NCBI GenBank assembly: GCA_013214205.1
Contig: JABSPQ010000084.1
Coordinates: forward strand, 1 to 32,846
Source of the DNA: Flavobacteriales bacterium
GTDB taxonomy: Bacteria > Bacteroidota > Bacteroidia > DT-38
Length of the DNA stretch: 32,846 nucleotides
Direction: 5' to 3'
Shown here: positions 12,141 through 21,970 of the stretch, piece after piece
How the letters are laid out: each line of letters begins with the position of its first letter
How positions within the stretch are numbered: position 1 is the stretch's first letter
Notes under the pieces: generated by a model
What the model was told of the DNA's origin: nothing
Databases searched by the model: none
What the model saw: only the letters and a program-made list of their open reading frames with translations
Made by a program: the position numbers and the translations under genes

Positions 12141-12241
12141 GCGATCATATTTAAATCTGTAATATCGAATATACCAATTATCCCATTACATGCGTCTTAA
12201 ACCCATTTGGGATTAATAAGTTGGAATAATCCTTTCAAATT

Positions 12242-12682
12242 GGCCATTTCCTAGAATGTGGCATAATGCTTTAAGCTCTTCAAAAAAGAACGATGCCCAA
12301 TTCCATTCTTGGCTGGCCTTTGAACAATTCAGCCACCCGCCCGAACGTAGCGTTCGGTACGGGCGGGTAAAACAAGCCTTGGATTTTGTGCGGTTGCCCG
12401 CCTCTCGGCGGACCTAGTAAGCATTCCATAAGTTGAGTTTTTCTTGAAAAGAAAAAGGAACGGCTTGGTATGCGCGAGAGAAATTCAAGGCGTAGTTTTA
12501 TCTGAATTATTCAGATGCCTTGAATTTTTTCCTTAGTTTTTTTTTCAAGAAAAAAAGTGAGCGGCCGCCCGCTGCTAGGGCAAATGATAAAAAGAAAGCT
12601 CTTGCTTTCTTTCACCTTAAGAGTTTGCTCTCACCGAAAAAGTTAGTATTCAAATGCAATATGCCTTATTCTAGGAAATGGC
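12242..12682 (+). mobile_element. MITE-like multi-hairpin non-coding element, copy 1
   Basis: A 441-bp element bounded by imperfect 27-bp terminal inverted repeats at 12243-12269 and 12656-12682 (24 of 27 positions pair; the right end reads ATTCTAGGAAATGGC). Flanks share TTTCAAATT (12233-12241 and 12683-12691), a possible 9-bp target duplication, although an inverted alignment of the same bases is also possible. Inside are several hairpins: TTTTTCTT/AAGAAAAA at 12438-12456; an 11-bp stem 12481-12491 with 12517-12527 enclosing a 7-bp stem around 12507; T-rich/A-rich arms at 12539-12556; and AAAGAAAGC/GCTTTCTTT at 12591-12612. The same element recurs at 15870-16271. No transposase is encoded. 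Confidence 0.75.
12335..12368 (+). repeat. 34-bp GC-rich palindrome nested in element copy 1
   Basis: Outer arms ACCCGCCC and GGGCGGGT, inner arms GAACG and CGTTC, loop TAG, with a 5-nt bulge GGTAC. At the homologous position of the second element copy only a few bases (TTAT) are present, so this palindrome was inserted into or deleted from one copy. Confidence 0.75.
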
Positions 12683-12754
12683 TTTCAAATTTGAGGCCAC
12701 TAGATTATTTAGGGTTTTAATAATATTCACTAGTTTTAAGGAACATAGGGTACA

Positions 12755-12780
12755 ACGGTGTAAATTATATAGGTCACCGT
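12755..12780 (+). promoter_or_regulatory. Inverted repeat upstream of the T9SS secreted protein gene
   Basis: ACGGTG at 12755-12760 and CACCGT at 12775-12780, separated by 14 AT-rich bases, end 26 bp before the ATG at 12807. It could be an operator or a leader hairpin. No matching site was noticed before the paralogous gene. Confidence 0.35.
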
Positions 12781-12806
12781 AAATAATTAATCAATAGCAC
12801 AAGAGA

Positions 12807-14252
12807 ATGACGAAAAGCCTACTTACGATAATTGCATTCACATTAGTTTCTACACTCGCATTCAGTCAAGCATTCACCATTGGCGATCCATCTAAAACAT
12901 ACATGTACCAAACAGATGCTTATTTGTCGGACTTGTATAATACTTGCTTGTTTAATGATTCTTGTTTTACAGGGCACAGAGTAGATAGTATCGATTCAAC
13001 AGGAGTAAATACTATTTACTATTTCAATAAATTTTTAAGAGACACGGGTGATTATTCGTATTGCGCTGAGGCAAGCTGGATGGGCGAGTATGCAGTAGTT
13101 GAACCTGGTGGGGGAACAAGTTTTTACAATAAGTGGATGGAGGAAATTTATATCCAACCTTTTAGTGCAAGCGACGAATGGGTAATATACTCTGATGGAG
13201 GGTCTACTGAAATTACAGCTTACCTAGATAAAGAATATTCAGCAACCATTTATGGTGAGTTAGATGAAGTAAAGGAATATATTTTGTCATCTGGAAATGG
13301 AGGAGAAGCCCTAGAGGGAGCGAGAATTATTTTGTCCAAAAAATTTGGATTACTTCAAACCGTCGATTTTTACAATTTCCCTCTTGATGGCACACCAATC
13401 CGTCAAGTAGGTTTTAATAACTCAGATGAAAGGACTTTGAATTTAACCTCCGATAAAATTTATGATTTTAATGTTGGCGATGAATTTCACAGACAATTCT
13501 ATTATGGTGCTTGGGACTTTGTTACTGAAGGAGAAGAAATAACTACCAATTGGACGGTTTTAGAGAAATCTGTATCAAACAATTTGGATACAATTAGCTA
13601 TGTAATTGATGAGTATGCCTACACCTGGAGAATGAGTGACTTTACAACAACAGACAGTATATACACGAGAGATACAATTGATGTTACCTATATTGTTTCG
13701 GAGTTGAAACAGTTCGAAAAAGTTCCACTCGATATCAACGATGCTTATTCTGTTCAGTTTACAGAAAGCAATACCATGTTTAAAACAATAGATTCCGACT
13801 GGTCTGCGTATGATAATTGCATTAACCTTCCGGTTGGTTGTGGGGCTGGACAAAAAACTTATGGTGAGCATTTAGGCCTTTCAAAATTTAACTTTAGTTG
13901 CCACGGTGCTTCGGCAGGAGAATCCCTGGTTTATTATAAAAAAGGAGATGAAGAATGGGGAGAGCCAGTATATCTTGAAGGTATTGTAAATAGTGTTTCT
14001 AACCTTGAAGCATCCAGTATTCAGATCAACATTTATCCCAACCCCGTTAACGATATTTTAAATATTTCTTTAACTCAAAATTCAACAGGCACATTACAAT
14101 TAGTTGATGTATCGGGTAAAACAATATTAAAAGATTCATTCCGAAATAAAACCGAAATACAATTGAACCTATCGGGCTTTGCAGCAGGCATGTACGTTTT
14201 GCAAATTAAAACTGGAGACCAAACCAAGCATCTGAAAGTTTTTAAAAAATAA
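12807..14252 (+). CDS. Secreted protein with T9SS type A sorting domain
   Basis: A 481-aa exported protein. Signal peptide MTKSLLTIIAFTLVSTLAFS at residues 1-20. The body (about 22-390) is rich in Asp, Tyr and aromatic beta-strand sequence with several Cys, and matches no enzyme family I recognise. The C-terminal 75 residues are a typical T9SS type A domain: INIYPNPVNDILNISL near 406, LVDVSGKTIL, then FAAGMYVLQIKTGDQTKHLKVFKK. It should cross the outer membrane by T9SS and be attached or released. The next gene (14335-15843) is a paralogue with the same layout, so the pair arose by duplication. Both lie between two direct copies of the multi-hairpin element. Confidence 0.85.
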   Translation: MTKSLLTIIAFTLVSTLAFSQAFTIGDPSKTYMYQTDAYLSDLYNTCLFNDSCFTGHRVDSIDSTGVNTIYYFNKFLRDTGDYSYCAEASWMGEYAVVEPGGGTSFYNKWMEEIYIQPFSASDEWVIYSDGGSTEITAYLDKEYSATIYGELDEVKEYILSSGNGGEALEGARIILSKKFGLLQTVDFYNFPLDGTPIRQVGFNNSDERTLNLTSDKIYDFNVGDEFHRQFYYGAWDFVTEGEEITTNWTVLEKSVSNNLDTISYVIDEYAYTWRMSDFTTTDSIYTRDTIDVTYIVSELKQFEKVPLDINDAYSVQFTESNTMFKTIDSDWSAYDNCINLPVGCGAGQKTYGEHLGLSKFNFSCHGASAGESLVYYKKGDEEWGEPVYLEGIVNSVSNLEASSIQINIYPNPVNDILNISLTQNSTGTLQLVDVSGKTILKDSFRNKTEIQLNLSGFAAGMYVLQIKTGDQTKHLKVFKK

Positions 14253-14291
14253 TTTGATTTTCGATTAGGGTAAACACCGCTTATTGGTGTA

Positions 14292-14307
14292 TTGAATATA
14301 TATTCAA
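14292..14307 (+). promoter_or_regulatory. Perfect 16-bp palindrome upstream of the broken paralogue
   Basis: TTGAATATATATTCAA reads the same on both strands and ends 27 bp before the ATG at 14335. It is preceded by an ACACC...GGTGT hairpin (about 14274-14290). It could be a dimeric regulator site; AT-rich palindromes also occur by chance. Confidence 0.3.
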
Positions 14308-14334
14308 ACTTCTCAAAAATCTAAACCAACCAAC

Positions 14335-15843
14335 ATGAAAACAACATTACTATCTATATTCTTAGCTTCCGTTTGTGGAACAGCTCTTGCTCAAGATTAC
14401 ACCGTTATTAACCCCGATAGGGAATACCTGTACGAAACCGAAGCGCTTATAAATAGGCTTGTAGATGAACATCGATACGAATTCGACAACAGTTACATCG
14501 ATTTTAAAGTAGACAGCATTGCAATTAATGCTTCCTACACCAGTTACTATTTTTAACAAAATGTTTCGCGATACCGCAATGGGATCGCATTATTGCCTGC
14601 ATAGCAGCTGGATGGGTGAGTTTGCATTTGTTGACAATATCGGGATTACCGGGTTGATGAATAAAAATGAGGAACACTTTTACTTTAAAGGCGATCTGGA
14701 AATGGGCGACGAATGGTTCTTTGGATCGTTTGATACCGAAGCTGTTTATGCAACCGTAGTAAGTGAATCTGCCACAACAACCCACGGCAAGGCAGACTCT
14801 GTAATAGTGATTGAGCTGCAAGCTAAAGACATTGATCTAAACAATATTACACACGCCGTTAACGGATTACAATTTGAACTTTCTCAAAATTTCGGACTCA
14901 TTAAAACCTACGATATTTACAATTTCCCGAACGATTTAACACCGGTTACTCAAGTCGGTATTTCGAACCCAGCCGCTGGTAAGTCCTTAATGAGATACGA
15001 TGATATTTTTGGTTTTGATGTTGGTGATGAGTTTCATTGGGAAAAATATGAGTACAATTCGTCCTATAGTGTGTATACAGATAAAGATCATTCTACAATT
15101 TGGAAGGTTTTAAGTGTCTATAACTCTAAGCAGGATACCCTAGTGTATCAAATAGATCAAGAAGTTTATACTCTTTTAATGAGTTTGAAAAAAGATTCGG
15201 TAATCTACAGCCATGATACAGTCGAGATCTCTTATTCTAAATCAGACAACAGTATCCTGCAAGCTCCTGTATATAGCTTTAATGATGGAGATAATTATAA
15301 TAATTATTATAACGGAGTATACACTAGTTTGGGAATTGAAGACGAAATCTACATAAAAAAACTAACGGTGTCTATGGCTATGAATCTGGGTGCTTGTTTT
15401 ATCCATTTGGTTGTGTAGGAGCAGGTAACAGAACTTTTGGCGAAGGTTTAGGTCTAATTGAACGTTCATACCAATGTAGTCCTGGTGGTTGGGAATTTGA
15501 GGGAGTTGATGAAAAGCAAGTTTACCACAATAAAGCAGGCGTTGAATGGGGTGAACCCATCGATATGGATTCTTTAATTTTAGACGTTTCTGATATCAAA
15601 TTGATTCAAACTTCTATCAATATTTATCCCAACCCAGTTAACGAAACCTTAAATATTTCCCTCAATCAAAATGCAACAGGCACATTACAAATAGTAGATG
15701 TATCTGGCAAAACAGTTTTAGAAGAATCATTCCAAAACAAATCCGAATTGCAATTAAACGTAGTTCAACTTGCCGCAGGCATGTACGTTTTAAAAATAAA
15801 AACAGGCGATAAATCCAATTATCGCAAAGTATTAAAACAGTAA
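14335..15843 (+). pseudogene. Frameshifted paralogue of the T9SS secreted protein
   Basis: The full-length paralogue of the gene at 12807-14252 can be read only across three frames. Part 1 (from 14335) has the signal peptide MKTTLLSIFLASVCGTALAQ and ends at a TAA after TSYYF. Homology resumes at NKMFRDT in another frame; the junction is a T5 run (14550-14554) with one T too many. Part 2 runs to about 15354, where an A7 run (15355-15361) lacks one A, and homology returns to the first frame as TNGVYGYESGC, matching the paralogue's cysteine region. Part 3 ends with a complete T9SS type A domain (INIYPNPVNETLNISL...GMYVLKIKTGD). The two shifts cancel. Either the gene is inactive, or homopolymer errors in the assembly broke an intact gene of about 502 aa. 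Confidence 0.8.
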
Positions 15844-16528
15844 AATCAAACCTTTATCGCGCAGTTAAGGGACATTACTTAGAATACGGTACAATACTTA
15901 TAGTTCTTCAAAAAAGAACAATGCCCAATTCCATTCTTGGCTGGCCTTTGAAGAATTCAGTTATAAAACAAGCCTTGGATTTTGTGCGGTTGCCCGCCTC
16001 TCGGCGGACCTAGTAAGCATTCCATAAGTTGAGTTTTTCTTGAAAAGAAAAAGGAACGGCTTGGTATGCGTGAGAGAAATTCAAGGCGTAGCTTTATCTG
16101 AATTATTCAGAAGTCTTGAATTTTTGCTTACTTTTTCATCAAGAAAAAAGTATGCGGCCGCCCGCTGCTAGGGCAAAAGATAAAAAGAAAGCCCTTACTT
16201 TCTTTCACCCCATAGAATTGTCCCTCACCAAAAGAAAGTATTCAAATACAAAATACTTTTAGTCGGATGTCTAAAACAGGCCGCTCAATCCAACCTCCCT
16301 AGAATCCAACTCTCAGCCTCATTAATACTCAGTTAAAAAAATAGGTATCATTATGTATCCAATGTTCGTATCTAACATAGATATTAATCAATTTTTATAA
16401 CTCACTAAATAATTACCAGAATTTCTGCTGAGCTCAGAAAGCCGCTTTTGATAGGTGTCCCCGACATTTTCCAGAACAATTTCTAAAGTTTTACGAGTCT
16501 CATAAAGCAATTACAGTAAGGCTGTTGT
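15844..16528. other. 685-bp non-coding region holding element copy 2 and the adhesin leader
   Basis: 15870-16271 is the second copy of the structured element. 16272-16528 is an AT-rich leader before the adhesin operon; it has a small hairpin TTTCTG/CAGAAA around CTGAGCT (16422-16440) and no clear promoter match. No gene is evident on either strand. Confidence 0.65.
15870..16271 (+). mobile_element. MITE-like multi-hairpin non-coding element, copy 2
   Basis: About 402 bp, in the same orientation as the copy at 12242-12682 and closely similar along its length. Shared blocks include TTCTTCAAAAAAGAAC, ATTCCATTCTTGGCTGGCC, GCCCGCCTCTCGGCGGACC and GCGGCCGCCCGCTGCTAGGG. The ends are homologous to the ends of copy 1, but its terminal inverted repeats are more degraded and no target duplication is clear. 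The main stem (16078-16088 with 16113-16123) keeps all pairings through a G-U wobble. It lacks the 34-bp palindrome. It ends 257 bp before the adhesin gene. Confidence 0.75.
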
Positions 16529-19500
16529 ATGTTGAAAAGAATAGTTTTCTTGTTAATAACTGCGTTCACCTGCATTATAAACAACACTTGGGCTTCGCAT
16601 TCCATGGGTTTAGACTTAACCTATACGTGTATTTCACTCAACACATATCAACTTAAACTTACCTTTTACCGAGATTGCGATGGCATAGAAGCACCTGGGC
16701 TTGGAGGTCGAGACCTGCCTAAAATTACCATAGCCAGTGCCTCGTGTGGAGAATCGTTTACACAGGAATTCAAATTAATTGAATGGCAAGAAGCTAAAGC
16801 AGTTTGCTCTAGTTTAGTAACCACATGCAGCGGTGGCAACTATCCTAGTTTAGAAGAGTACGTTTACGAATCTACCGTTATTTTACCATTGGCCTGTAGC
16901 GACTGGGTTTTTAGCTCTGGCTTGTGTTGCCGAAACGACGCCATCAATAGAATTGAAGTAACAAAAGTTGATATTTATGTAGAGGCCAAGCTCGATAATG
17001 TTACCGCTGTCTGCAACAATTCTCCCGATTTTTCAATAACCCCCGTACCGTTTATTTGTGTGGGATCGTCGTATTGTTTCAACAACGGCGCAAGCGATAT
17101 CGACGGCGATTCGTTGGCGTATAAACTGGTGCCTCCCACAACTGGGCCTGGCGGAAGCGATACTGTAGATTATGTTGCTGGTTACTCTGCCACCTCACCA
17201 GTAAAGTCCAGTCCTAATTTATCTCTAGATGAAATTACAGGCGACATTTGTTTGAATCCGACAGCCTTGGAAGTTAGTGTGTTGCAAATAAGGATAGAGG
17301 AATGGCGCGACGGGGTTTTAATCGGAATGATAGATAGGGATATTCAGATAAGGGTTATTGATTGCATTGTAGCCAACTCGCTTCCCGAAATAAATGGAAT
17401 TGATACTTCAGGAATCTATACGGCTTCTATATGTGCTGGCGACACTTATTGTTTTTTCACGGAAGCGATAGATGCCGATGTGGGCAATGTGGTTACCATG
17501 ACCGCAGATGATGGAATTCCCGACGCAACTTTCACCGTAACGTCAGATGATTTACCCGTTGGCACCTTTTGTTGGAAACCCAAACTATCTGATGTTAGAT
17601 CAATACCGCATTGTTTTACAGTTTCGGTTAAAGATAATAATTGCCCGTTTTTAGGCTCACAAGTATTTTCGTTTTGCATTACAGTTACCAGTTACTTCTC
17701 TTCGGAAGTCTCTTCGTTTTCTAACGTATCGTGTGTTGGAGATTGCGATGGAGAAGTTGCTCTAAATTTATTGGGAGGCACTCCACCTTTGGAATATGAG
17801 TGGGACGACGGAAGTACCGAAACATCACTCTCAGACTTGTGTCCGGGCGATTATATTTTTGAGGCCTCCGACAGCATTGGTTGCACTGTTAAGCGCAAAG
17901 TAACAATTGAAAGCGCAGAGGAGATTTCTCTTTCTAGCAACCGAACAAATATTTCGTGTTATGGTTTATTAGATGGTACCATTACTACTACAGTTGTTGG
18001 TGGGGCTGGTTTAAATACCTTTTTGTGGAGCGATGGTCAAACCGATTCAGTAGCCACAGGCTTAGGCATTGGTTCGTATACGGTTACAGCAACCGATGTT
18101 AACGGCTGCTCGGTGACTGATAACTTTACAATTTTAGAACCACCCGAACTTTTAACCAATATCAATTCTGTATATCACCTAACCTGTTACGATAGTCTTA
18201 ACGGAACAGCAACCGTTTCAATAAGTGGAGGGAGGTTGCCCTATACCCAGCTTTGGAACAATGCAGCACAAAGTACCAAAGTCACATTATCGAATGTTGC
18301 AGGTGGCGATTTTATAGTAACCGTAACAGATAATTCGGGTTGTGTAAATATCGATTCCGTTACCATTAATGGGCCTCCTAAGCTCGAAGGTGTATTGGAA
18401 GGCAAGGATGTTACTTGCTATGGCACAGGAGATGGAATGGCCATTTACACTGTTACTGGTGGTGTTACGCCTTATTCATATCTCTGGGACGACACGCTAG
18501 TGCAAACTACCGACACAGCTTTTGGCCTTATAGGAAATACATATAGCATTGTTGTTGTAGACAGCAATGGCTGTTCAATTACAGAATCTGTCGAAATTAC
18601 AGAATCTGGAAAAGCACTAGGTCTTTCTCCTATTATTACAAAAGTTAAATGTTATGGCGATTCAAACGGAATTATTGCAGTAAATGCTTCGGGAGGCTCT
18701 GGAGGTTATACCTACCAATGGAGTAGCGAACATATAACTCCCACCATTTTCGGATTGGCTGGCGGAATGTATACTCTAACGGTTACCGATGATGAGGCTT
18801 GTACCATTAGCAAAAGTTATCTACTTCCCGAAGATGATGAATTGTCGATTGAGGTAGATGATTGGAAACATATACAATGTTATGGATTAGAAAACGGATA
18901 CATTGAAACCAGTATTTCAGGCGGTGTAAGTCCGTATACCTATTTGTGGAATGATATCAATACCAGTACCACCCCCGAAATTTACGATTTGCTCCCAGGT
19001 AGTTACACTTTGGTTGTTACGGATGCAAATAATTGCACCACAAACTTTAATCAACCCATTGCCGAACCCGACACGCTTGTTGTTGTAGATATAGCTGGTA
19101 CAGATTTAACTTGTTTCCGTTCCGATGATGGTACGATAACAGTAGATATTGCGGGTGGTACATTGCCTTATCAATATACTTGGAACAAAGGTATAGGAAA
19201 CGACACAGCTCTTATTGATAGTTTATTCGACGGAGTATATCGGCTAACCGTTACCGATAAAAGAGGGTGTATCGTAAAAAGTAATAAAGAAATTACGCAG
19301 CCCGATAAGATTGTTTTAAACGATCATTCTATTAACTCAATCTGTAAATTCTATACTGGGGTTGCCGTGGTTAAGGTAGCTGGTGGTACTAGTCCATATA
19401 CTTATTTGTGGAACGATCCAGATCTCCAAACAGCCGATTCGGCATTTGGTCTCTTAGGCGGGGTTTACACCGTAATAGTTACGGATACCAACCTCTGTGT

Positions 19501-21970
19501 AGATAGTTTAGCCGTTGGTATCAGCGATTACCCCGATCCAACTGCTGCTTACGATAGTACAGCTGTAACTTGCCATGCTGGTACCGACGGCACCGTTACA
19601 GCAACCGTGGTTGGTTTGGCGCCACCGTTTACTTATTTGTGGAACGATCCTTTAACTCAAACTACTGCAACCATTACAGATTTGGTAGCTCGTGGTTACA
19701 ACGTGGTGATAAGGGATACCAACAATTGCGTTATTAGTAAAACCATTTTGGTAACCGAACCCGACGAATTTATTGATACATTATTTACGGCAAACGCAAC
19801 TTGTTTTGGCGATTTGGCGGGAGAGCTTTCCGTGGTGGCCTCTGGTGGTACAGCTCCTTATACTTATTTATGGGACGATCCCGAAAATCAAACCGACTCG
19901 TTAATAATTGGTTTGGGAAAGGGCATTTATAATGTTACCATTACAGATGGCAATGGTTGCGAGTATCTTAAAACCGATAGCATTGTACAGCCCGACAGGC
20001 TTACGGTAATTAGTTCGTTGGCCGATACCGTTTGCCGCGATTCTGTTACTTCTTTATTGGCAACTGTTACAGGTGGGGTGCTGCCATACTCTTACTTATG
20101 GAGCGATGCGTTAAGCCAAACCGATAGCGTTGCAATAGGTCTTGCAGAAGGTAATTATACCGTTACTCTTACCGATAAATATGCTTGCGCCGTTACCCAA
20201 CCTTTCTTCATTTTCGAGTTGTCTGTTTTGGCTGTCGCTGTAGATAGTGCTATCCACATATCTTGTTTCGATGCAGCAGATGGAATTGGTTATATAGGTG
20301 TTACTGGTGGGCTGGCGCCTTATTCGTACTTGTGGAACGATATTAATAAGCAATCGGTTCCAACTCCTACAAATTTAGAACCTGGCACTTTCGATGTATT
20401 GGTTACCGACGATTGGGGATGCGAGGCTACCAATGCATTAACCATTATATCGCCAGCCGAGATAATAGTAGTTATAGACAGCACCAATATACTTTGTTCC
20501 AGCGATGGCGATGGAAGTGTATCTGTAAATGTTTCAGGAGGAGTTGCTCCCTATACTTATTTGTGGAACGATGCTGGAGGGCAAACTAATTCTGTTGCCA
20601 ACGGTTTAGTCGGTGGTAAATATGAGGTTGCTATTGTCGACAGTACTGGTTGTTCAGTTACTGATTCCGTTCAAGTATTTGAACCTGCCAAACTAATTTT
20701 TTCGCTTTCCAACAACGATACAATTTGCCTTGGCGATTCGGCTACATTCCTTGTTAGTGCGTCTGGTGGAACTGCGCCATACACTTACAATTGGTCGCAG
20801 GGCACAAATGATAGTAGTATTACGGTAAGTCCAGTCGATCAAACTTCTTATTTGGTAGACGTAACCGATGCAGCGGATTGTACCACTAAGCCCGATTCTG
20901 TTTCTATATATGTAAAAAGCATGGCGAACGATCTGCTTTCTTTTTCAGGGAATGCGTCACTTTGTTTGGGCGACAGCACTACAATTGAGGCTACGCATGT
21001 GGGCGCTCAAACAGGGCCATATACGTTTAGTTGGAACAATGGATTGGGCACTTCGCTTGGGCCGTTTAGTTTGGTTCCGCTCGATACCACTACTTATGTT
21101 GTTTCAGTTTATGATGGCTGCCCTACACCAAGGGTCGACTCGATTACTGTTACGGTAGATGAACTTCCGAGTTTTAAACCACCATCATTAGTGGGTTTTG
21201 GTTGTATCCCGTTAGAAGTATTGTTTACAGACACCACGGGCAATTCTTCATCCTACTCTTATGTCTGGAATTTTGGTGATGGTATGTCGTCATCTCAAAG
21301 TAATGCTATCTATACTTACGAAACCGCTGGCGTTTATTATACTTCCGTTCAAATTACTTCCGATAATGGTTGTCGTTTTTATTCCGACACATTAGGTGCC
21401 GTTTACGCCAATCCTAGCCCAACGTCGTACTTTACGGTGAGTCCAACCAGAACGGATATCAGAACACCAGAAGTTCAAATATACGAGTCGTCTTATCGTG
21501 ATATAATAGTTTGGAAATGGGATTTTGATGAAGGCGAGGATGTTCATTTTGACGGTGATCATTATGAGTTTGCCGACACTGGCACATACAACATTTCCCT
21601 AAAGGTGCTCAACACTTATTTCTGTGCCGATAGCTCTACCGTGCAAGTTGTAATCGATCCTTATTACGAATTTAAGGTGCCCAATGCATTTGTTCCTAAT
21701 CCAGGTGGAGCAGGCGATGGTAACTATAACATCAATCCTTTGAGTAACGAAATCTTTTTTCCAGTGTTAGAATATGTCGACGAATTTAGGATGGAGGTAT
21801 TTAACCGTTGGGGCGAATTGGTATTTGTAACCAACGATGTAAACGTGGGGTGGGATGGCTATTATAGAGAACGGCTTTGTCAGCAAGATGTATACGTATG
21901 GCGCATTTGGGTGAAATACATAGATGGTAACGAAGATACCCAGGCGGGTGATGTAACACTGATAAGGTAA
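16529..21970 (+). CDS. Giant SprB-repeat surface adhesin with T9SS type B (gliding-associated) C-terminus
   Basis: An 1813-aa exported protein. Signal peptide about 1-22 (ending NTWA), then SHSMGLDLTYTCISLN and a Cys-rich N-terminal region to about 390, typical of large Bacteroidota adhesins. From about 395 to 1400 there are 13-14 SprB-type repeats of roughly 77 aa, each with a C(Y/F)G..DG start, GGxxPYxYLWxD core and YTVTVTDxxGC end. Two Ig/PKD-like modules follow, including YVWNFGDGMSSS, and an IVWKWDFDEG module. The end is the gliding-motility-associated C-terminal domain (VPNAFVPN, FNRWGELVF, QQDVYVWRI, DVTLIR). It should be secreted by T9SS and surface-attached, for adhesion or gliding. 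It shares an operon with the PD40 and PorP/SprF genes, each 1 bp apart, as is usual for SprB-type systems. Confidence 0.9.
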   Translation: MLKRIVFLLITAFTCIINNTWASHSMGLDLTYTCISLNTYQLKLTFYRDCDGIEAPGLGGRDLPKITIASASCGESFTQEFKLIEWQEAKAVCSSLVTTCSGGNYPSLEEYVYESTVILPLACSDWVFSSGLCCRNDAINRIEVTKVDIYVEAKLDNVTAVCNNSPDFSITPVPFICVGSSYCFNNGASDIDGDSLAYKLVPPTTGPGGSDTVDYVAGYSATSPVKSSPNLSLDEITGDICLNPTALEVSVLQIRIEEWRDGVLIGMIDRDIQIRVIDCIVANSLPEINGIDTSGIYTASICAGDTYCFFTEAIDADVGNVVTMTADDGIPDATFTVTSDDLPVGTFCWKPKLSDVRSIPHCFTVSVKDNNCPFLGSQVFSFCITVTSYFSSEVSSFSNVSCVGDCDGEVALNLLGGTPPLEYEWDDGSTETSLSDLCPGDYIFEASDSIGCTVKRKVTIESAEEISLSSNRTNISCYGLLDGTITTTVVGGAGLNTFLWSDGQTDSVATGLGIGSYTVTATDVNGCSVTDNFTILEPPELLTNINSVYHLTCYDSLNGTATVSISGGRLPYTQLWNNAAQSTKVTLSNVAGGDFIVTVTDNSGCVNIDSVTINGPPKLEGVLEGKDVTCYGTGDGMAIYTVTGGVTPYSYLWDDTLVQTTDTAFGLIGNTYSIVVVDSNGCSITESVEITESGKALGLSPIITKVKCYGDSNGIIAVNASGGSGGYTYQWSSEHITPTIFGLAGGMYTLTVTDDEACTISKSYLLPEDDELSIEVDDWKHIQCYGLENGYIETSISGGVSPYTYLWNDINTSTTPEIYDLLPGSYTLVVTDANNCTTNFNQPIAEPDTLVVVDIAGTDLTCFRSDDGTITVDIAGGTLPYQYTWNKGIGNDTALIDSLFDGVYRLTVTDKRGCIVKSNKEITQPDKIVLNDHSINSICKFYTGVAVVKVAGGTSPYTYLWNDPDLQTADSAFGLLGGVYTVIVTDTNLCVDSLAVGISDYPDPTAAYDSTAVTCHAGTDGTVTATVVGLAPPFTYLWNDPLTQTTATITDLVARGYNVVIRDTNNCVISKTILVTEPDEFIDTLFTANATCFGDLAGELSVVASGGTAPYTYLWDDPENQTDSLIIGLGKGIYNVTITDGNGCEYLKTDSIVQPDRLTVISSLADTVCRDSVTSLLATVTGGVLPYSYLWSDALSQTDSVAIGLAEGNYTVTLTDKYACAVTQPFFIFELSVLAVAVDSAIHISCFDAADGIGYIGVTGGLAPYSYLWNDINKQSVPTPTNLEPGTFDVLVTDDWGCEATNALTIISPAEIIVVIDSTNILCSSDGDGSVSVNVSGGVAPYTYLWNDAGGQTNSVANGLVGGKYEVAIVDSTGCSVTDSVQVFEPAKLIFSLSNNDTICLGDSATFLVSASGGTAPYTYNWSQGTNDSSITVSPVDQTSYLVDVTDAADCTTKPDSVSIYVKSMANDLLSFSGNASLCLGDSTTIEATHVGAQTGPYTFSWNNGLGTSLGPFSLVPLDTTTYVVSVYDGCPTPRVDSITVTVDELPSFKPPSLVGFGCIPLEVLFTDTTGNSSSYSYVWNFGDGMSSSQSNAIYTYETAGVYYTSVQITSDNGCRFYSDTLGAVYANPSPTSYFTVSPTRTDIRTPEVQIYESSYRDIIVWKWDFDEGEDVHFDGDHYEFADTGTYNISLKVLNTYFCADSSTVQVVIDPYYEFKVPNAFVPNPGGAGDGNYNINPLSNEIFFPVLEYVDEFRMEVFNRWGELVFVTNDVNVGWDGYYRERLCQQDVYVWRIWVKYIDGNEDTQAGDVTLIR
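17720..20750 (+). repeat. Tandem coding repeats of about 231 bp (SprB units)
   Basis: Unit starts, judged from the conserved Cys codon region, fall near 17730, 17950, 18185, 18410, 18645, 18870, 19105, 19340, 19565, 19795, 20030, 20260, 20490 and 20720, a very regular 225-235 bp period. Units are diverged at the DNA level. Two (near 19340 and 20030) have lost the CYG/DG start, reading ICKFYTG and VCRDSVTS. Confidence 0.8.

Follow-up and report, generated by a model that had tools for sequence, protein, structure and literature searches.

We analysed a 32,846-nt stretch of DNA from a Flavobacteriales bacterium (GenBank assembly GCA_013214205.1, contig JABSPQ010000084.1, positions 1 to 32,846; hereafter the window), which is one contig of an assembly of 5.1 Mb in 464 contigs, and in which two copies of a non-coding repeat element bracket a pair of genes. 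Our preferred explanation, held with moderate confidence, is that these copies belong to a mobile, gene-free superfamily whose folded core, a pseudoknot with a triple helix, would serve the propagation of the element. In its general form the core consists of a long imperfect hairpin followed by S1' (CTTGAT), L1 (TTTTTTG), S2' (CTTACTTTTT), the loop S1'' (ATCAAG) and S2'' (AAAAAGTAAG), and it is predicted to fold as the long hairpin and then an H-type pseudoknot, with a pyrimidine triplex in the major groove of the stem.

Evidence for the pseudoknot and a putative third strand

In the core, the hairpin loop has its complement in a strand further upstream, and changes in one are matched by changes in the other. 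Paired exchanges include CTTGAT/ATCAAG, CTTGAC/GTCAAG, CTTGAA/TTCAAG and CTTGG/CCAAG, as well as the larger ACGAA/TTCGT, TGCC/GGCA, GCGGCA/TGCTGC and CGGCC/GGCCG. When both dinucleotides were left free in the pattern that was run on the genomes of 84,980 named species, they were Watson–Crick complementary at 87 of 89 sites, against a mean of 45.4 and a maximum of 58 in 2000 shuffles. Compensatory changes are also found in the S2 stem and in a GCCC...GGGC hairpin that lies 3' of the core in the genome under study (hereafter the own genome) and in some others; among the own-genome copies the latter runs from GCCC/GGGC through GTCC/GGAC to GTCT/AGAC. A strict pseudoknot finder returned no match in 448 kb of shuffled DNA, and the 180 nt upstream of the pseudoknot have a mean folding z-score of −2.47 class-wide, compared with −0.88 for a downstream control. 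From these sequence comparisons we infer that the core almost certainly forms an H-type pseudoknot, in which the upstream CTTGAT would pair with the hairpin loop ATCAAG.

L1 consists of consecutive pyrimidines. Its length scales with how many stem pairs lie above a conserved C-G pair (rho 0.82), and is exactly one below this count in 39 of 58 distinct cores. Its composition follows the stem as well: across the 58 distinct pseudoknots, L1 positions facing S2'' comprised 9 C.G, 0 T.G, 5 C.other and 315 T.other combinations (Fisher 1.8e-14, uncorrected for relatedness), such that an interior G on the purine strand of the stem was accompanied by a C at the parallel position of L1 in all nine distinct cases. 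A scan with the stem C fixed and L1 left free gave seven matches with an intact hairpin, from four families, and all seven carried a C at the predicted place. At two loci where a mirror image can be told from a copy (L110 and L111), the C in L1 mirrors the C in S2', so that L1 does not simply repeat the stem. Watson–Crick pairing of L1 with S2'' was considered and rejected, since it would place a C in L1 irrespective of an interior G, which is unseen. The covariation therefore leaves us with considerable confidence that the T-rich L1 acts as a putative third strand in the major groove of the stem, forming a pyrimidine-motif triple helix of U.A-U and C+.G-C triples.

The tolerated changes also point to the strand that folds. 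In cores whose S2' reads TTAC, S2'' is changed from GTAA to GTGA (a U.G pair) 28 times, against one or two changes of the A.C type, and since U.G changes so outnumber the others, the given strand is very likely the folded one. Since triplex pseudoknots of this type are well documented in RNA, we favour RNA over single-stranded DNA (ssDNA) as the probable folded form of this strand.

Distribution, mobility and rival roles

A covariance model of the core found matches (E ≤ 1e-4) in 91 of 295 genomes of the class, many of them in numerous copies; at most 17 sites were scored per genome. The scan of named species yielded 80 loci among the matches listed, 78 of which belong to Bacteroidota (Pedobacter, Pontibacter, Flavobacterium, Mucilaginibacter, Chitinophaga, Belliella, Dyadobacter and others). 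Cultivable strains with an intact core include Belliella pelovolcani, Pedobacter planticolens and Pontibacter roseus. The combined searches support the core as a conserved, Bacteroidota-wide superfamily of gene-free dispersed elements. The two remaining matches listed, in a metagenome-assembled genome of Fusobacteria (L201) and in Orenia metallireducens (L211), may stem from horizontal transfer or contamination, and the Orenia copy is without the 3' stem arm. An exact pattern fitted to the form of the own genome had no match in the GTDB collection, plasmids gave no match to the element, and Rfam gave no family match at either gathering or permissive thresholds. The open literature on the motif, on Bacteroidetes repeats and on similar structured mobile elements (subscription papers were not covered) contained no description, and as far as databases and open papers show the element is undescribed. 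No gene family recurs beside the core, and the neighbours of related copies are unrelated. In one genome (G057, loci L322–L331), short hairpin units resembling GTGCCxTCCGCAxAGGA are repeated in varying number 3' of the core, and at L321 and L329 of the same genome two genes that by eye resemble site-specific recombinases end directly at a partial pseudoknot core.

Within the own genome, copy 1 of the window as query gave 24 matches at E ≤ 0.001 on more than 12 contigs, and a model of the core hairpin located at least 17 sites (copies or fragments). These copies share one core and carry three types of ends, namely type A, to which the window copies belong (GGCCATTTCC...GGAAATGGCC), type B (CTACCGTGTGTACGC...GTATACACGGTAG) and type C (GCATTCGCGTCAAGCTAA...TTAACCTGACGCCAATGC); one locus (L040) is an A/B hybrid and another (L039) is a type C copy nested inside a type A copy. 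Flanking duplications were seen at copy 1 (TTTCAAATT), L042 (TTTATAAAA) and L038 (AATAAAAA). There is hardly any doubt that the repeats in the window are dispersed mobile repeats.

The clearest view of mobility came from a relative, G250, in which the element is 315 nt long with ends GGCTCTATG.../...AATAGAGCC. Its target duplications are exactly 8 bp long and lie at AT-rich sites; over 19 copies the flanks agree on average at 7.05 of 8 positions, against 3.76 and at most 5.26 after shuffling. In G250, 34 copies were located from the left end alone, and thus irrespective of the core; in these the pseudoknot showed 4 changes in 1371 cells compared with 334 in 8254 elsewhere (p 8e-18), which is ~14-fold less variation; all four changes are private to one copy, while most changes elsewhere are shared. 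Long forms of the G250 element (378–544 nt) have additions at three places, namely 62 nt between S1'' and S2'', a 73-nt hairpin between L1 and S2', and a segment within the left domain, and every strand of the pseudoknot is left intact. The inserts stand exactly at joints that a pseudoknot tolerates, and hence lend independent support to the fold.

Because of its terminal inverted repeats and 8–9 bp target duplications, the element would move in the own genome and in G250 as a non-autonomous DNA transposon with the help of a transposase. We tentatively propose that the pseudoknot may help the element itself to propagate, for example through stability of the transcript or recognition by the mobilising machinery. 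That a phylum-wide mobile class should depend for its propagation on a telomerase-like triple-helix pseudoknot RNA, as an RNA-assisted and gene-free system, is a bolder and more doubtful extension.

Several observations weigh against this explanation. Within the G250 pseudoknot, private changes fall only ~3-fold below their level elsewhere (p 0.015), and their depletion relative to the long hairpin is not significant; constraint would hence have acted mainly on copies that left descendants, which in turn hints at a role in propagation. The search brought up no transposase with matching ends, and the full-length insertion sequence (IS) with the same ends that the original prediction suggested looking for did not emerge from the searched assemblies, which are fragmented and might have lost one. 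Among the genes checked, IS1 and IS1595 were rejected as parents, as their ends differ or the gene is absent, and the G250 left ends include no opposite-facing pair, hence no autonomous copy was seen. In G092, G145 and G230 the cores have no evident terminal repeats or duplications, so the core may ride different vehicles and the route of mobility may differ between families. Furthermore, placement relative to genes is only weakly biased (58 vs 37), both window copies carry broken pairs, five C's in L1 face a non-G (two of them from a spurious match), and the counts were not corrected for relatedness.

Among the alternatives, the folded form could be ssDNA, with the pseudoknot as a displaced-strand signal comparable to the repetitive extragenic palindromes (REPs) recognised by the HUH nucleases of REP-associated tyrosine transposase (RAYT)/TnpA-REP systems in single-strand transposition. 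Forward-strand selection would fit ssDNA equally well, the cores of several genomes are without evident terminal repeats, and Bacteroidetes harbour TnpA-REP genes of subclass 2.6, which go with "atypical secondary structures" (PMC6006769); the own genome contains one such gene. However, the pseudoknot occurs at 1 of 36 Y1-transposase loci by the strict finder and at 2 of 30 Y1 loci of relatives by the covariance model, and a RAYT/REP system was rejected on these counts; moreover, G283 holds about 10 copies without a Y1 gene, the RAYT gene of the own genome has another hairpin repeat, in tandem, on its flanks, and the best-resolved family has terminal inverted repeats and 8-bp duplications, which are typical of DDE transposases. 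We consider the ssDNA reading unlikely. The own-genome RAYT gene (G000:C280:17600-20600, loci L117 and L118) encodes a Y1 transposase of 185 aa in which NHLH and YIHQNP motifs are present, like those of TnpA-REP subclass 2.6 (PMC6006769); the gene adjoins an IS1-type transposase, and its flanking repeat reads CAATTGGTTTTCCGTCATCGTCG....

Similarly unlikely, in our view, is a core that acts as a host-useful RNA module, i.e., a mobile 3'-end stabiliser or terminator whose copies are kept for the benefit of the neighbouring gene. The long hairpin followed by CTTGATTTTTT resembles an intrinsic terminator in shape, the sense orientation is the commoner one for upstream genes (the 58 vs 37 given above), and the strong depletion of changes in the G250 pseudoknot would be accounted for. 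Yet the neighbouring genes are unrelated, the element is found in all orientations including between divergent genes, the co-directional sense bias is not significant (30 vs 20, p 0.2), and the depletion of private changes is only ~3-fold. An apparent preference for 3' untranslated regions was likewise too weak to carry a claim.

An ordinary miniature inverted-repeat transposable element (MITE), the remains of an internally deleted IS with hairpins of no role, would account for the terminal inverted repeats, the shortness, the 8–9 bp duplications and the absence of coding capacity. It is improbable in light of a phylum-wide core that is combined with different ends from genome to genome, and that displays covariation and constraint which the ends do not. 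Less probable again is a double-stranded DNA feature (a mirror repeat or H-DNA, or a protein-binding palindrome): L1 and S2' do form a pyrimidine mirror repeat that obeys the H-DNA sequence rule, but the separate covariation of S1, the tolerance of G.U and not of A.C, and the inserts at pseudoknot joints require one folded strand.

The two copies in the window and their surroundings

Copy 1 (12242-12682) and copy 2 (15870-16271) lie in the same, direct orientation and are linked by direct repeats between 12242-12667 and 15870-16259, which keep their order and measure 173 nt (95%), 91 nt (86%), 66 nt (92%) and 30 nt (80%). Copy 1, on the + strand together with all its parts, is a full-length type-A element as judged from these repeats and its terminal arms. 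Its left terminal inverted repeat (GCCATTTCCTAGAATGTGGCATAATGCTTT, 12243-12272) pairs with the right one (12653-12682) over 30-nt arms that are 87% complementary, and identical 9-bp target-site duplications (TTTCAAATT) are read directly at 12233-12241 and 12683-12691. RNA folding and the class-wide upstream z-scores mark a multi-branched long-hairpin domain (12370-12518) directly 5' of the pseudoknot. There follow S1' (CTTGAA, 12519-12524), assigned by class-wide covariation with its partner at 12544-12549; L1 (TTTTTT, 12525-12530), the putative third strand, assigned from the L1/S2'' length relation and C.G covariation in relatives; S2' (CTTAGTTTTTTT, 12532-12543), with its partner at 12550-12561; the loop S1'' (TTCAAG, 12544-12549), read directly as the complement of 12519-12524; S2'' (AAAAAAAGTGAG, 12550-12561), the purine strand of the stem; and the 3' GCCC...GGGC hairpin (12567-12581), assigned from compensatory changes among own-genome copies. 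S1 and L1 are kept in this copy, and the conserved C-G pair is replaced by a G.G mismatch.

Copy 2, recognised on the + strand by the direct repeats, is a decayed type-A element in which the internal hairpins are kept and the ends are degenerate, and its flanks hold no recognisable target duplication. Its pseudoknot region (16115-16154) comprises S1' at 16115-16120, L1 at 16121-16125, S2' at 16127-16136, the loop at 16138-16143 and S2'' at 16145-16154, followed by the 3' GCCC...GGGC hairpin at 16160-16174, which was located by comparison of own-genome copies. Here S1 is down to five pairs, with one lost, and the copy fails the strict pseudoknot finder. Relative to shuffled sequence, the RNA folding z-score is −7.6 for copy 1 and −3.4 for copy 2, and both look like weathered, partly decayed members of the family.

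Much of the original prediction, which was made from the letters of the window, agrees with these results: the ordered repeat blocks bear out two related direct copies with common hairpins, the terminal inverted repeats and 9-bp duplication of copy 1 were both recovered, further copies exist in the genome, and a non-coding element outside any named family is in line with the Rfam search. Its suggestion of selection on folding is upheld by the covariation of the core pairing and the compensatory stem changes; in taking the hairpin as the folding unit, it was right about a selected fold and missed the pseudoknot found across the phylum, whose loop covaries with the strand upstream. Its comparison of the whole to a composite unit carrying the gene pair did not survive. 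The position of two direct copies on either side of exactly one pair of paralogous genes invites the idea of a composite transposon, which we nevertheless reject as exceedingly improbable, given that copy 1 has a separate target duplication and the outer flanks share none (TTTCAAATT precedes copy 1 and TAAAACAGG follows copy 2), that L034, on another contig, is more similar to copy 1 (93% identity) than copy 2 is (86%), that genes beside related copies are unrelated, and that the enclosed proteins, at 36–51% identity, are far more diverged than the elements.

Both genes between the copies are paralogues with a type IX secretion system (T9SS) type A sorting tail (Por_Secre_tail), and the pair is absent from the sole other genome of the genus. 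The second one (14335-15843) has two frameshifts, at about 14553 and 15400, near short homopolymer runs, which may represent decay or sequencing error. Further downstream, positions 16529-21970 of the window encode a protein of 1813 aa in which SprB repeats and PKD domains are accompanied by a weak match to the T9SS type B tail. Elsewhere in the assembly, the last 150 bases of L045 (at the end of G000:C169) form a palindromic fold-back at the contig end, which is probably an assembly artefact.

Significance and comparison with known systems

If our preferred explanation is true, the core would represent a large unannotated family of structured nucleic acids in a phylum of importance in the gut, the soil and the sea; on the bolder reading given above, it would also be an RNA-assisted, gene-free element unlike the MITEs, REPs and retroelements known so far. 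It would account for unannotated repeats that recur in many genomes, and its many natural compensatory variants could be used to study triplex rules in vivo. It would also raise the question of why a gene-free DNA element with transposon-like ends needs a folded single strand.

Known examples of triple-helix pseudoknots come from telomerase RNA and a few riboswitches, and the telomerase RNA of K. lactis reportedly contains a pyrimidine-motif triple helix. In the human telomerase RNA pseudoknot (P2b/P3), the major groove of a U-A stem is occupied by a U-rich strand (PMC4705647). The core resembles telomerase RNA in the topology of its stems, in a U-rich loop in the major groove of an A-U stem with purines on the 3' strand, and in the predicted U.A-U triples and, as covariation indicates here, C+.G-C triples. 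It differs in that its third loop is short or absent in most copies and in being bacterial and dispersed at many loci. Neither a telomerase nor a template was seen with it, although no search was aimed at a template-like region; the likeness is structural, and no descent is claimed. The SAM-V (PMC6061858) and guanidine III (PMC5696562) riboswitches share with the core an H-type pseudoknot with a major-groove triple helix, whereas the element is a mobile multicopy repeat with no fixed downstream gene and no Rfam match.

Among mobile repeats, the REPs and bacterial interspersed mosaic elements of RAYT systems, including those of Bacteroidetes subclass 2.6 (PMC6006769), are likewise dispersed and structured. 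In contrast to these, the element mostly does not stand beside RAYT genes, is longer, contains a pseudoknot rather than a simple hairpin, and makes 8-bp duplications in its best-resolved family. The REP hallmark GT[AG]G is absent from the foot of its hairpin, which is preceded by CTTGATTTTTTG; the atypical RAYT subclass 2.6 is likewise without GTAG. Finally, the element is similar to MITEs in being short, gene-free and multicopy, with terminal inverted repeats and a target duplication, and is set apart from them, with no parental IS found, by its variable ends and a structured core that extends across the phylum.

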